DNA from: Salinibacter grassmerensis
Lineage (GTDB): Bacteria > Bacteroidota > Rhodothermia > Rhodothermales > Salinibacteraceae
Assembly: GCF_947077765.1 (NCBI RefSeq)
Contig: NZ_CAMTTF010000001.1
Location: forward strand, 1,028,818-1,092,817
Direction of reading: 5' to 3'
DNA length: 64,000 nucleotides
Shown: positions 10,403 to 15,203 of the stretch, one piece after another
Numbering within the stretch: position 1 is the stretch's first letter
How the letters are laid out: each line of letters starts with the position of its first letter
Notes under the pieces: generated by a model
Databases searched by the model: none
Seen by the model: the letters and a program-made list of their open reading frames with translations, nothing else
Told to the model about the DNA's origin: nothing
Program-made: the position numbers and the translations under genes

Positions 10403-10730
10403 TCAGTGGCAGGGCAGAAAAAAGACCGTGGAGAGTTTCGGTGTAGGGTCTCCAAGATGATCCTGTGAGGAGAATTTGGGCCTGGAGGAGATTGCGTCCT
10501 GGCTTCAGGACCCGCGGAATAAAAAGGATAGGAGGGAGTAGATCTTAACGATAATGAACCCGAATCCTTTTCCCCAATCTATGGCATATCCAAAATCCAA
10601 ATGTTGGGCTTAAAATGATCCGTTCCTGTCCAGGTCCTGACGACTCCAAAGTGTAGAATTTGTGCATCCAAATACGTCTCTATCTCTTACGGGACTTCAG
10701 TTGTCTTCCCTGCAAGGATTTCCAACTGGT
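10403..10730. promoter_or_regulatory. AT-rich divergent promoter region
   Basis: The stretch from about 10500 to 10660 is much richer in A and T than its surroundings and separates divergent genes. Candidate -10-like hexamers are GATAAT near 10549 and TAAAAT near 10612. The second is pointed towards the sigma-like gene. No operator symmetry is obvious. Promoter assignment is by composition and position only. Confidence 0.4.
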
Positions 10731-11822
10731 ATGGACATGGTTGCTACCGCAACAGGAAGCACGCTCACGCTGCCGCGCGCCCTCCGAGTTGCGACTGGGC
10801 CCAGTCCAACACAGCGAGCGACCCGGCGGGTGGTCCACCGTTGTCACCAGATCGCCCGGGTCACGCTCCGTCAACAAAAGCGGACCGGGTCTCTTCGAGA
10901 AGACGTGCTGGGGGAAGATGTGGAGGACTTGGCAATGGATGCGATTGCGGGGCTGTTTGAGCGAGACGACCGCGGTCGATTTTCCGAGCTGCGCCGGTAC
11001 TTTGAGGGACAGGTGTCGCCGGATCATTCGGAGGAGAAGCTAATCCGAGATCTACGTCGCCTTGTTCAGAGCACGGTCACCGACTGGCTCTTTGAAGCAT
11101 ACCGGGCCGCCGACCGGTCGCTTTCCAATCAGATTCGCTCCCTCAAACGAGCTGTGCGGCAACGCGAAGACCTATGCCTTCGACGTCGTGGGACGGTCCA
11201 GTGGATTGAGTTTGAAGGGCAGAGAGAACCGTCGCAGGGAAATGGAGGCATTGGTCGAGAAGATCGTCGTCCAGGCCGTCCAATGCCTCTGGAAGCCCTG
11301 GAGGCTCATTTGACTGGAGAGGTGGCAGAGGCCTCCTCGACTGGCGATCTGCTAGAAAAGGCAATCGAGACCCTCTGGACCCATCCGGAATTTGAGGCGG
11401 CGTACCCACTAACTCGTCTTGCTCAGGTCATGCGCGCAGCTCGCACGCGGGTCCAGTCTGTCACCGAGCACTCTGGTTCGGTGTCCCATCCGGATCAGCC
11501 GATTCTCCGGCCCGAGGAGACCCGGCGCTATATCCAAAATACCCTCTCATCACTGCGTGCCGAAAAGCGGCCGACGTATGTTGGGCAGGGAAAGGTCGAC
11601 GAACCGACGTATGAGGCCTACTTTGCGGCGCTTCGAGATCGTCTAGAAGCGCGGTTTGTACCTCCTGGCGATCCGGAGATGACCCATCATGAAGCCCTCA
11701 TGGAGCATCTTCCGGGCCTTACCAAAGAGACGTATCGAGATCAGCACCGTGCTCGGTTCGAGTACTTGGAGCAAAAGGCACGAGAGACGCTCGTCAGCCG
11801 TCTCCAAGATGTGATTCAGTGA
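10731..11822 (+). CDS. divergent sigma-70-like RNA polymerase factor (inferred)
   Basis: 363 aa from the ATG at 10731, which has AAGGA about 13 nt upstream; a GTG at 10662 would extend it by 23 residues. Residues about 25-95 resemble sigma region 2: an Arg-rich first helix (QIARVTLRQQKRTG), then DVEDLAMDAIAGLFERDDRG, which matches the ECF pattern EDL-x-(Q/M)-(D/E)-(A/V)-x-x-L. The C-terminus (HEALMEHLPGLTKETYRDQH, then RARFEYLEQKARETLVSRL) resembles the region 4 helix-turn-helix. A long middle segment is atypical. It is first in a same-strand set with an anti-sigma-like and a membrane Lon-like gene. The assignment is by pattern only. Confidence 0.5.
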   Translation: MDMVATATGSTLTLPRALRVATGPSPTQRATRRVVHRCHQIARVTLRQQKRTGSLREDVLGEDVEDLAMDAIAGLFERDDRGRFSELRRYFEGQVSPDHSEEKLIRDLRRLVQSTVTDWLFEAYRAADRSLSNQIRSLKRAVRQREDLCLRRRGTVQWIEFEGQREPSQGNGGIGREDRRPGRPMPLEALEAHLTGEVAEASSTGDLLEKAIETLWTHPEFEAAYPLTRLAQVMRAARTRVQSVTEHSGSVSHPDQPILRPEETRRYIQNTLSSLRAEKRPTYVGQGKVDEPTYEAYFAALRDRLEARFVPPGDPEMTHHEALMEHLPGLTKETYRDQHRARFEYLEQKARETLVSRLQDVIQ

Positions 11823-12031
11823 TTTAGAAGATCTGCAGATTCTACTCACAAGGCACACCATCCGTTCTTCTAAGACTAGGTGCATTGAATTCAGCAAGAA
11901 CCCCATTTGGGAAGGATAAGAGGCGACGTTTGCTCATGAGTGTTTGAGCCGAAAACTCTCCTGCGGTGCGTGAGTGTTACGGACGCAAGAGCATTCACAA
12001 TGCACACCTTCCGATAATTGGGTAGAAACCT

Positions 12032-12862
12032 GTGGACCCGGGCGACGAGCGACACATTGAGCGGTTTATACGAAACCCAGACAGCTTGTCCAACGATCAG
12101 CGGCGTGCCGTTGAGCGTCTGATCGAGAAAGATCCAGGGGCCCGGACCTATGCCGAGTTTTTGGAGGACTTCTATGGGCGACTCGACGATGAGCCCTTGA
12201 CCCCTTCAGGGGGGCATGTAGATGAGTTTGTTGGAGGCCTTTTTCAAGAGGAGGCAGTCGTCTCTCTCCGGCCCTTCCAGCCCCCTCGTGGCGCACGTCC
12301 GACCGTCTTAGCGGCAGACACTGACTCCACGCACACCGATGCCCCCACGGGCGAGCGCCGATTTACCGTTCTGACGACCCTGTCCGCCGAGGAAGAGAAT
12401 TTGCTCGTGCGTGTGATGAAAGATCGTGATACCGGGCGGGGACGCCTCTATGTTCTAGCGGATTCGTCTGAGCGACGGGCCCACGTTGTCGTCTCGTTTC
12501 CGGACCTCGGCTTCGACCTCATTGCCGACGAGGAAGGACGGACCACATTTGCAATACCGCCGGGAATTTCCTTGAAGCAGTGGGCTGAGGCACACGCGGT
12601 GGTGCGCCATCCGGTGGCGGCACGGGCCGTGGGGCCGGGAGAAGAGGTTGCGGTACACTTGCCGGATGGGGGGACGTTGCTCGGAGAACGAGAGGGAAGA
12701 GCCTTGACGGTCGCAGTGGAGCCCCACGGAGGTAACGTCCCCGCATACCTCACCGTGGTGCCTCGAGACGATTCCGCGCGTCTCTTCCGGCTGAGTACCT
12801 CGCCACCGCTGGAGTGTAACACGTCTCCTGAAGCTCCGCTCATGCTCCGCGTCTACGAGTAA
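12032..12862 (+). CDS. anti-sigma-like cytoplasmic protein, 276 aa
   Basis: GTG start. The first 50 residues (ERFIRNPDSLSNDQRRAVER, then LIEKDPGARTYAEFLEDFY) have the helical layout of anti-sigma N-terminal domains, in which a short gap of counted residues is followed by a DP-x-x-R-x-x-x-E-F helix. The zinc-binding His/Cys residues are missing. Residues 110-276 are beta-rich (RFTVLTTLSAEEE, RLYVLADSSERRAHVVVSF, PAYLTVVP). No signal peptide or membrane segment is visible. It ends 4 nt before the next gene, so the two are almost certainly cotranscribed. Function is inferred from position only. Confidence 0.5.
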   Translation: MDPGDERHIERFIRNPDSLSNDQRRAVERLIEKDPGARTYAEFLEDFYGRLDDEPLTPSGGHVDEFVGGLFQEEAVVSLRPFQPPRGARPTVLAADTDSTHTDAPTGERRFTVLTTLSAEEENLLVRVMKDRDTGRGRLYVLADSSERRAHVVVSFPDLGFDLIADEEGRTTFAIPPGISLKQWAEAHAVVRHPVAARAVGPGEEVAVHLPDGGTLLGEREGRALTVAVEPHGGNVPAYLTVVPRDDSARLFRLSTSPPLECNTSPEAPLMLRVYE

Positions 12863-12866
12863 GTGC

Positions 12867-15203
12867 GTGTGCTTCGTTCGTGATCACGTCTTATTTGTCG
12901 TGGCCGACTCTCTCCTTCCTTCTTCTCTCGAGACTCGCTACCGGCGTCTTCTTGATGTATTGAATGGGCCTGTGTCGGGCCGATGGGCGCTTCGACACGT
13001 TGACGAATTTCTCGGACAACTGGGACCGGAGACGCCAAAGGCTGAGTCTTACCTTCTGTCTTTGGCCGAGCCCGTGGCCGAGCAAGCCTCTGAACTAGAT
13101 CCCGTGGGGGCTCTCCCCAGCCGGCTTGTTAGCCTCGCAGACCGGCTTCGTAGGGCCCGGGACGCTCGTCCAGTCTTGAAGAAGTGTGAGGCACTTCGTC
13201 AGGCTGAACGGGACCTCCGGCGCCGAGCAGGACTGCTTTATGGCTATGCAGGGGCCCTCACGCGTATGGGGGAGTGCCTCCGCGTACCAGGCTCCTCAGA
13301 GATCAAGATTGGCAAAGTAGAAGAGCCCCCTCGGGTCCGGCTCCGCGGAGCGTTAGAGCACGCAGAAAGTGCCTCGCTCAGGGGAGAGATCGAGTGGATG
13401 CTTGGCCGCTGGGAGCGGACAGCCGACGAGGGAACGTGCGTGCCGGTGGTTGAGCGACTGCCCTCCTGGGTTCGTGCTGAATACGAGAACGATACAGACG
13501 TTGGAGCCCTGCGGCGACTCACTATCCAGCTCCACGGGCCCGCGGAGGCCGAAGATCAACTTCAGGCCGACGTGTCTACCCAGGAGGCCGAAGCTCCGTC
13601 GTTGACGGACGGACCGGTGGCCGCGACGCGTCGACTGCTTGCTGACCGGTGGCCGCGACTCGAGAACCGGTACGTAAAGGGACGGGTGTCCTTCAATCGG
13701 GCGGAGCTCAGTCATGGAGGGCGATCGGCCGGTCTAGCCATCTCGGCCTTCCTTTACGAAGCTATACTCAAGCGCGCGCGCTGCCGGGTGCGCGCCCACG
13801 TCCAGTCCGAGGTCCTCCTGACTGGGGGAGTATCGACCGATGGGACCATCCGTCCGGTGAATGAGGACAGCTTGCCGGTGAAGGTCCGTACGGCCTTCTT
13901 CTCATCGAAAGCGCGCCTCGTGGTGCCCGAGGGGCAGCTCGACACGGCCCAGTCGGCGCGTGACGCACTCCTTGAAAAATTTCCTCATGGACGACTGGAT
14001 GTCGTCGGCGTCGAGCGACTCGACGAACTGTTTTACGATCGTCGTCTCACAGAGCAGCAACGCATTGGGTGGAGCCGACACACGGCTGATCGTCTGCGAG
14101 ACCGAGGCAAGGACATAGTTTTAGGAACACTCGTTCTAGGGCTCCTGGTCGTGATTGGGGGCCTGCTATATGGCCCATTCGACCGAGATCCGGCTCTGGC
14201 ACAGTTTCAAGGGGCGACATTATTGGTTGAGAACGAGAGCGGTCGGGCCATTGAAGAGATCGAAGTCGGACGGAGACTCGTACGCAAGATTAAAAAGGGA
14301 TCGGCCAAAAGTCCGGTAGCCTTTGCCGACGTTGTGGAGGATGAGACGCGCGAACTGTTCTGGGGAGCGTCTCTGGGGGAGAATGCCCGCATGGACGTTC
14401 TCCGTGCCAAGACCGCAGAGGCAGATACGTTTCTGTGGGAGCGTCCCTTGCGCTTTGAAGTAGATTTTCCGAACAAGCCGGAGGTTGAGAATCCGGCGTT
14501 CGGGATCACGGACCTCGAAGCCGAAGACTTAAATCGGGACGGCGATCCTGAACTCTACGTCCTCGCCAATCACCGTCCCTACTTTCCCTCTCTCCTGCTT
14601 CAGCTTTGTCCCACTGACGGCTCAGTGCAGCAGCGCTACCTGCATCCCGGGCACCTCCGCAGCGGGATTGAGACGGCGGATCTGATGGGTGGTCCCGCCC
14701 CAGAACTCCTTGTTGGGGGACACAGCAACGCCCTCGAGGATCCGGTCCTGGCTGTGCTTGATCCCTCCAACATGGCGGGTCATGCCCCTACGCAAGAGGG
14801 GTACGGCGTGGGAGATGTTGGGCTCGCTTCGCACGTCGCCTACCTGCGCTTTCCAAGTACTGCGCTTCAAGAGCAGCGGCCCACCGACTACCCGATGGTG
14901 TGGCAAGTCCGCCCTGTCCCGACAGCGAACACGCTGGAGATCGTCACGCAGGACGGGCGAACGCCTGAGGGACGTACGGATCGACCACGGGTGATCTCGA
15001 CCCTCGGCTACGACCTCCGGCCCCGGTCGGTCGGGACCGATGGGCATTATGACCGGATGGCGGACTCACTCGTTAAGCGCGGCATCCTGGAGGGGGTGCC
15101 TGGGCCAGAGGACCTACAGCGCTATGGAGCACAGATTCAGTACTGGACGGAAAATGGCTGGTCGGCGATGCCGACCTTTGCCTCCCGACACGCTGCCCCC
15201 TGA
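12867..15203 (+). CDS. one-pass membrane protein with Lon-protease-like domain and FG-GAP-like exterior
   Basis: 778 aa, GTG start 4 nt after the previous stop. Residues 1-230 are helical and charged. Residues 265-395 look like the S16 (Lon) proteolytic fold: GGRSAGLAISAFLYEAI contains a Ser (S287) in the Lon G-x-SAG context. Downstream come VLLTGGVSTDGTIRPVNEDS and SKARLVVPEGQLD, which match the Lon strand order. A Lys (K339) lies near the expected dyad position, but it aligns one or two residues off. A single membrane helix follows at about 416-438. Beyond it, TDLEAEDLNRDGDPELYVL (about 548) is an FG-GAP/VCBS-type calcium loop. I infer a transmembrane sensor with a cytoplasmic Lon-like half; activity is uncertain. 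Confidence 0.6.
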   Translation: MCFVRDHVLFVVADSLLPSSLETRYRRLLDVLNGPVSGRWALRHVDEFLGQLGPETPKAESYLLSLAEPVAEQASELDPVGALPSRLVSLADRLRRARDARPVLKKCEALRQAERDLRRRAGLLYGYAGALTRMGECLRVPGSSEIKIGKVEEPPRVRLRGALEHAESASLRGEIEWMLGRWERTADEGTCVPVVERLPSWVRAEYENDTDVGALRRLTIQLHGPAEAEDQLQADVSTQEAEAPSLTDGPVAATRRLLADRWPRLENRYVKGRVSFNRAELSHGGRSAGLAISAFLYEAILKRARCRVRAHVQSEVLLTGGVSTDGTIRPVNEDSLPVKVRTAFFSSKARLVVPEGQLDTAQSARDALLEKFPHGRLDVVGVERLDELFYDRRLTEQQRIGWSRHTADRLRDRGKDIVLGTLVLGLLVVIGGLLYGPFDRDPALAQFQGATLLVENESGRAIEEIEVGRRLVRKIKKGSAKSPVAFADVVEDETRELFWGASLGENARMDVLRAKTAEADTFLWERPLRFEVDFPNKPEVENPAFGITDLEAEDLNRDGDPELYVLANHRPYFPSLLLQLCPTDGSVQQRYLHPGHLRSGIETADLMGGPAPELLVGGHSNALEDPVLAVLDPSNMAGHAPTQEGYGVGDVGLASHVAYLRFPSTALQEQRPTDYPMVWQVRPVPTANTLEIVTQDGRTPEGRTDRPRVISTLGYDLRPRSVGTDGHYDRMADSLVKRGILEGVPGPEDLQRYGAQIQYWTENGWSAMPTFASRHAAP

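Follow-up and report, generated by a model that had tools for sequence, protein, structure and literature searches.

We analysed a 64,000-nucleotide (nt) stretch of Salinibacter grassmerensis DNA (NCBI RefSeq assembly GCF_947077765.1, contig NZ_CAMTTF010000001.1, positions 1,028,818 to 1,092,817 of the forward strand; this whole stretch is called the window below). It contains three consecutive open reading frames (ORFs), G1, G2 and G3, all on the + strand, which on balance probably form a signal cascade: once activated, the membrane protein G3, which bears a Lon-type protease domain, would cut the anti-sigma protein G2, and the regulator G1 would thereby be freed. G1 (10731..11822 of the window, +) encodes a putative sigma-like regulator of 363 amino acids (aa), G2 (12032..12862, +) a 276-aa cytoplasmic anti-sigma-like protein without a membrane helix, and G3 (12867..15203, +) a 778-aa one-pass membrane protein with an inner Lon-like and an outer FG-GAP-type domain. 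An upstream GTG at 10662 is a possible start of G1, but the homologues fit the ATG at 10731. G1 and G2 are separated by 209 nt; G2 and G3 lie 4 nt apart, as had been stated in an earlier, sequence-only reading of this DNA. The computed basis of the cascade consists of the domain make-up, the conservation of the catalytic dyad, the anti-sigma signature, a linker motif in G2, the gene linkage and a fusion of domains. That G3 cuts G2, where it cuts, that ClpXP then acts, which way the signal runs and that G1 is a sigma factor are inferences.

The three genes recur together. In a 60-genome sample that included the window genome, which shares its GTDB genus with genomes G001 and G006, matches to G3, G2 and G1 were found in 15, 15 and 19 genomes, respectively. 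A wider sample, 296 genomes of the phylum, yielded G1 in 37 genomes and a Lon-bearing G3 in 27 (taken from the match list and re-checked during locus annotation); at most three candidates per genome were scored for the Lon-bearing G3 and at most six for G1, and an absence in a genome is not proof. G1 was present in 26 of the 27 genomes with a Lon-bearing G3 versus 11 of the 269 without (Fisher p 1.5e-27, a value that ignores kinship and hence overstates independence). Eight of these 11 genomes have a fused form described below (G062, G075, G089, G101, G171, G233, G243, G297), while the anti-sigma protein of G159 is a separate one, that of G189 consists of the bare domain, and in G034 none was found. 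The Lon form and the fused form occur together in G070, G108, G148 and G293. A G3 search of plasmids gave no match.

To annotate 81 loci we used one profile for G1, two for G2 (anti-sigma domain and remainder) and three for the parts of G3, and we defined a run as same-strand genes with gaps below 700 nt. The loci were picked for holding at least one of the genes and some share one genome, so that the draws are not independent; labels were set by hand for the anti-sigma proteins of L155, L165 and L168 and for nine short proteins of family f44. Alignment A1 was made without L074, L083, L093 and two L094 proteins, A2 without L073 and L094:1197-2111, and A3 without L072; A8 comprised 61 of the 66 G1 sequences of at least 300 aa and lacked L072, L075, L082, L092 and L094:1197-2111. 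It was revealed by this neighbourhood check that G1, an anti-sigma protein and a Lon-bearing G3 are adjacent in this order in 26 runs, so that the three-gene unit proposed earlier is conserved; the recurring order is more than chance. In 14 runs G1 precedes a fusion of anti-sigma domain, membrane helix and outer domain that has no Lon; in nine it precedes a short relative of G2 (175-183 aa, in one case truncated to 74 aa), two of these nine runs coming immediately after a Lon-bearing gene; and in four it precedes an anti-sigma protein without Lon. An anti-sigma-type gene thus lies directly downstream of G1 in 53 of 68 G1-containing runs. Three further runs have the anti-sigma and Lon genes with G1 on another contig.

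Among the 26 triplet runs, one has three and one has two consecutive G3 copies with outer domains. The former (L146:5598-12688, -) has its three Lon-ectodomain genes in a row behind a single G1-G2 pair, as if one regulator served several receptors; the latter is L149. In family f44 (L157, L162, L166, L183, L184, L189, L190, L191), the gene after G1 codes for a G2 relative of 175-183 aa, and the Lon-ectodomain gene adjoins in L157 and L166 and lies elsewhere in the genome in other cases. Other genes were also seen around G1. A membrane protein with a subtilase (Peptidase_S8) domain is encoded 375 and 330 nt after G1 in two loci of one family (L069:6823-8361 and L071:8829-10397, both +), and is possibly another protease partner. 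In L067, a gene that by eye is an ordinary sigma gene of the extracytoplasmic function (ECF) type (1567-2175, +), followed by an 853-aa ORF, adjoins a G1 gene.

The matches and the conserved residues indicate that G3 carries a predicted Lon-type (S16) protease domain with a conserved Ser-Lys dyad (residues 204-395; 13476..14051, +). When a profile of 14 G3 sequences was compared with PDB sequences, 21 matches fell below 1e-3, all of them named Lon or La (best 1.8e-5). The LonB model spore_lonB matched G3 with E 0.0063, far below the model's cut-off, and Pfam Lon_C matched five of the 14 members at E <= 1 (best 0.0074, also below cut-off). The G3 profile also weakly picked ordinary Lon genes in the 296 genomes, as ORFs of ~800-900 aa matching at profile positions 190-400. 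Ser287 (codon 13725..13727, +), which had been singled out in the sequence-only reading for its Lon-type context, and Lys339 (13881..13883, +), which aligns with the Lon lysine motif, are the candidate catalytic residues. Both are invariant in the 14 aligned homologues, and across 46 Lon domains the Ser is kept in 45 and the Lys in 45, both being lost only in L094:12519-14756. This dyad-less protein (-, genome G054) stands in tandem with an intact Lon-type protein (L094:10654-13077, -) that has a DUF5122 beta-propeller as its outer part.

The 14 Pfam families matched by any of the 14 G3 members at E <= 1 included no AAA family and no SAVED family, for which Pfam has a model. CalpL, a CRISPR protease considered below, was not among the 55 PDB sequences matched by the G3 profile. 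When the three proteins were scanned with PADLOC, the sole match was a weak one to CARF-Lon (E 0.011), located in the Lon part of G3; cas genes and arrays were not searched for. LonA and LonB share with G3 the S16 domain with its Ser-Lys dyad but have an AAA+ module joined to it, whereas G3 has a membrane helix and an outer domain instead. The lack of an ATPase domain among these Pfam matches would fit a Lon-like half that no longer cuts but binds or lets go of G2 through a change of shape, with G3 acting as an allosteric receptor that titrates G2. That the dyad-less copy is kept beside its intact neighbour and that the fused two-gene form manages with no Lon domain at all agree with this view. 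We nevertheless consider it unlikely: the dyad is retained in 45 of 46 domains of a family in which many members are less than 35 percent identical to the window G3, and an Ala in the G2 linker is conserved and is lost together with the Lon gene. A G3 that cuts is preferred below.

The window G3 has one hydrophobic segment (residues 417-435; 14115..14171, +), in agreement with the one-pass topology predicted earlier. In all 41 relatives compared, a membrane helix lies between the Lon and outer domains, with an excess of Lys/Arg on the Lon side in 38 of the 41; one or two additional hydrophobic segments were seen in 15 of them by a crude measure. The part beyond the helix (residues 440-772; 14184..15182, +) is the putative sensor. 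The FG-GAP-type loop, noted before at about residue 548, is placed here at about D554-E562 (DLNRDGDPE; 14526..14552, +). Pfam FG-GAP_3 matched the window G3 weakly (residues 542-565, E 0.051, below cut-off) and ten of the 14 homologues at E <= 1 (best 1.9e-6). At the other end of G3, residues ~15-175 (12909..13391, +) form a predicted helical domain, whose model helices have a predicted local distance difference test score (pLDDT) of about 55-89. In the low-confidence AlphaFold2 model of G3, VIA rows, taken as hints only, relate part of the outer domain to beta-propellers (2yms, Z 8.3) and 74 residues to E. coli Lon (3wu3, Z 7.0).

The outer domain is also found in other settings. One Lon-type protein ends soon after the membrane helix, lacks the outer domain and overlaps the anti-sigma gene (L165:6749-8248, -). 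In genome G045, the outer domain with the membrane helix is fused to a Ser/Thr kinase rather than to Lon (L093:2756-5134, -; Pkinase E 4.3e-47), and a 1068-aa protein carries the outer domain without a Lon or anti-sigma domain (L074:4630-7836, -).

G2 itself matches nothing well, the NCBIfam anti-sigma model giving E 0.16. Pfam RskA_N matched one of 15 G2 relatives (E 0.43); as a route to anti-sigma genes it matched one of 31 genomes, below cut-off, and was discarded. The signature HX3CX2C, which marks zinc anti-sigma factors, was found in 23 of the 50 proteins with the G2 N-terminal domain; 15 of the 16 fused proteins have it, as do 8 of the 34 separate ones, and in most cases it lies 25-29 residues into the domain. 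As a control, it occurred within the first 100 residues of only one of 1,245 other ORFs of at least 150 aa in the same loci. It was present in none of the 15 sequences of the G2 starting alignment, and the window G2 is itself without zinc ligands, as had been observed when the protein was called anti-sigma-like. zf-HC2, the Pfam name for this signature, gave weak matches in five of ten tested proteins (best E 0.0064), all below cut-off. Since its relatives carry the zinc signature and the domain is fused to a G3-type outer domain, G2 is read as an anti-sigma protein that begins with a predicted anti-sigma domain (residues 1-72; 12032..12247, +).

The fused protein consists of the anti-sigma domain, a membrane helix and a G3-type FG-GAP outer domain, is about 440-500 aa long and contains no Lon domain; this predicted make-up is the classical layout of a membrane anti-sigma factor. 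Because the fused form joins the anti-sigma domain to the outer domain, G2 is tied to G3, and the arrangement implies a single pathway served by the G3 outer domain and the G2 anti-sigma domain alike. Judged by domain composition, it further says of the triplet that the anti-sigma domain has apparently been cut loose and the Lon domain placed where the anti-sigma domain was tethered. One fused anti-sigma protein carries two tandem outer domains (L169:1549-4140, -, genome G243).

The anti-sigma domain of G2 is followed by a linker and a C-terminal domain. The linker is variable except for Ala95, which is kept in 37 of 38 separate anti-sigma proteins (a set that includes eight short G2 relatives) and is the best column besides Met1. 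The surrounding residues are mostly V/I-L-A-A, then D/A/Q/M, then S/T; in the window the motif is V92-L-A-A-D-T97 (12305..12322, +), a candidate cleavage site. Without any alignment, xLAA was found in 29 of the 38 linker stretches, versus a mean of 2.5 and a maximum of 8 after shuffling, and in 3 of the 16 fused proteins. The C-terminal domain (residues 105-276; 12344..12859, +), a candidate G3-docking part, has a weakly related counterpart in the short proteins, which are related to G2 at the profile level only (hhalign probability 96 percent, E 2.3e-9). The sole exception to Ala95 is in L174 (genome G159), where only an ordinary Lon and no Lon-bearing G3 was found. In G189 (L187), all that is left of G2 is an anti-sigma domain of 74 aa, and the only Lon found in this genome is again an ordinary one. 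In a tree of G1, L174 lies inside a clade of triplet genes and L187 inside a clade of the short form, both clades being Lon-bearing. These two cases, few but in the same direction, suggest that G2 retains its linker motif and C-terminal part where the Lon protein is present.

Most simply, the VLAA motif would be the cut site and the C-terminal part of G2 the docking site. No computation fixes the substrate of G3 or the sign of the signal, and G3 might instead act on G1 or on other proteins, or might be switched off by its ligand and exert negative control. We regard this as improbable, because the C-terminal part and the linker motif go with the Lon gene, which points to G2 as the substrate. 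A different docking element, an HVDEF(V/L)G motif shared by G2 and G3, had been suggested earlier as one possibility beside chance; in a scan of 41 Lon-ectodomain and 29 separate anti-sigma proteins it occurred only in the window's own two proteins, and this restriction makes chance the best reading. If G2 were cut after Ala95, the new end would resemble that of the ssrA tag encoded in the same genome, ADDYSYAMAA. In Clostridium thermocellum, XAA ends on anti-sigma fragments are signals for ClpXP (PMC12203970).

G1 belongs to a conserved family, and the pattern DVEDLAMDAIAGLF, pointed out in the sequence-only reading as ECF-style, is located in it. No significant match of G1 to sigma factors was obtained with Pfam, NCBIfam, PDB or our own sigma profiles. 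Sigma70_r2 matched one of 24 G1 members (E 0.14) and TIGR02937 (sigma70-ECF) one of 61 (E 0.021), neither significantly; Pfam applied to the 61 members gave no significant sigma match among the matches listed (best 25 of 47 families), and against PDB sequences the best rows were yeast ORC1 and a designed or nanobody-like chain, with no sigma factor. Comparison by hhalign with our sigma profiles gave a probability of 3.5 percent and scores of 25.3, 24.6 and 19.3 for whole G1, its N part and its C part, against maxima of 20.2, 20.4 and 17.0 in 40 shuffles (19.1 for whole G1 reversed); this slight excess is not counted as support, since regions 2 and 4 are not aligned in register. In the window genome, which has 12 Sigma70_r2 genes, the G1 profile found only G1 itself.

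An AlphaFold2 model of G1 from five sequences (pLDDT 78.5; predicted template modelling score, pTM, 0.45) has a helical N-terminal, a middle and a helical C-terminal part. Foldseek with this model listed no sigma factor among 44 matches, none of them below 1e-3. When Foldseek's 182 candidates were re-ranked by VIA, Staphylococcus aureus SigB came first (Z 6.9, 156 aligned residues, root-mean-square deviation 21.3) and E. coli sigma32 third (Z 5.5); sigma factors made up seven of the best 50 rows, and the rows that span the whole model were mostly sigma factors. The best rows also included the lambda Q antiterminator (Z 6.7), cyclins and TFIIB, and all Z values were below 8, a range in which, as the tool itself cautions, a match may reflect no more than a common arrangement. 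These non-sigma rows, together with the missing sequence match, suit a G1 that is some other DNA- or RNA-polymerase-binding regulator held by an anti-sigma-like domain, the rest of the cascade being unchanged. Such a regulator is a serious but less probable candidate: the partner family bears the zinc anti-sigma signature, the whole-model rows favour sigma factors, and the single TIGR02937 match is to a sigma model. G1 is thus probably a very divergent sigma factor. Since sequence and Foldseek give no sigma match, this identity rests mainly on the anti-sigma partner, with the weak structural ranking in addition, and the earlier description of G1 as sigma-like has its support in these two points.

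Taken together, the cascade would run as follows. G3 would span the membrane, its outer part being an FG-GAP (beta-propeller-like) sensor and its inner part a Lon-type protease domain without ATPase, while G2 would hold G1, which is most likely a very divergent sigma factor. In response to a ligand or stress from outside, G3 would cluster or change shape, and its Ser-Lys protease domain would cleave G2 within the VLAA motif; ClpXP would then degrade the anti-sigma fragment, recognisable by its ssrA-like LAA tail, and the freed G1 would direct transcription. Besides the missing sigma match of G1 in sequence and by Foldseek, several observations weigh against this scheme. S16 domains normally work with an unfoldase, and the VLAA motif may form a strand with a structural role and not be cut. 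The five-sequence model of G3 (pLDDT 47.5) is unusable for the geometry of the active-site dyad. Several anti-sigma matches in the fused proteins are weak (E 5e-4 to 1e-2), and the L168 fused protein was assigned through its HX3CX2C motif, not by profile. G1 stands alone in 15 of the 68 G1-containing runs, several of them at contig ends; in the annotated loci of family f9, no anti-sigma domain was found beside G1; ten Lon-ectodomain genes stand alone among the 81 loci; and in the 296-genome sample, G226 has Lon-bearing G3 genes, with no G1 found.

A broader form of the proposal is offered tentatively and is rather doubtful as a whole. G3 may represent a widespread one-protein transmembrane signalling protease in which a propeller switches the Lon domain, the cut at VLAA would create a ClpXP degron and free a sigma family that cannot be recognised by sequence, and the lineage would convert between this and the classical fused layout through exchange of modules (anti-sigma domain, outer domain, Lon) and also place the outer domain on a Ser/Thr kinase.

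Parts of this logic are known from other systems. RseA is a membrane-bound anti-sigma factor released by regulated proteolysis. In Craspase (Csx29-Csx30), a protease reportedly cuts a partner that controls a sigma factor; Craspase is a CHAT protease, RNA-guided and not membrane-bound, unlike G3, and the idea in common is that of protease, partner and sigma factor. The closest functional parallel is CalpL/CalpT/CalpS, in which, as in the triplet (known here from its sequence), a Lon-type protease with its own sensor is combined with a soluble anti-sigma protein and a sigma factor. CalpL cuts CalpT into pieces of 23 and 10 kDa (PMC11417357, PMC12751052), and it senses cyclic tetra-adenylate (cA4) via a SAVED domain as part of type III CRISPR loci, removal of the anti-sigma fragment by ClpXP having been proposed (PMC11417357, PMC12751052, PMC11229360). 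Unlike CalpL, G3 has a membrane helix and an outer FG-GAP-type domain in place of SAVED. Membrane anti-sigma factors of the RsgI type resemble the fused form in having an outer sensor, a membrane helix and an inner anti-sigma domain, and their XAA-ended fragments are degraded by ClpXP, as is proposed here for cut G2 (PMC12203970). In the RsgI type, separate site-1 and site-2 proteases cut the anti-sigma factor, whereas the triplet has a soluble anti-sigma protein and a receptor with a protease domain of its own.

The sequence-only reading knew of no described system of this composition and did not name the CalpL/CalpT/CalpS parallel. In the literature searched, no description was found of an outer propeller-type sensor joined by a membrane helix to a Lon domain and acting with a soluble anti-sigma protein, though subscription papers lay mostly outside the search and such a description may exist. 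The logic by which a protease cuts an anti-sigma factor and frees a sigma factor is already known from CalpL/CalpT/CalpS and from regulated intramembrane proteolysis; the receptor uniting sensor and Lon would be the new part.

To our knowledge, outside signals reach sigma factors by an anti-sigma receptor cut by separate proteases, or through the cytoplasmic Lon-SAVED protease of CRISPR systems. If the proposal is true, the receptor itself would be a Lon-type protease, unlike these known routes. The exact residues of interest can be named: Ser287 and Lys339 of G3 and Ala95 of G2. If G1 is confirmed, it would represent a sigma family missed by current profiles. Since both split and fused relatives exist, the conversion of one signalling layout into the other could be studied as a natural experiment.

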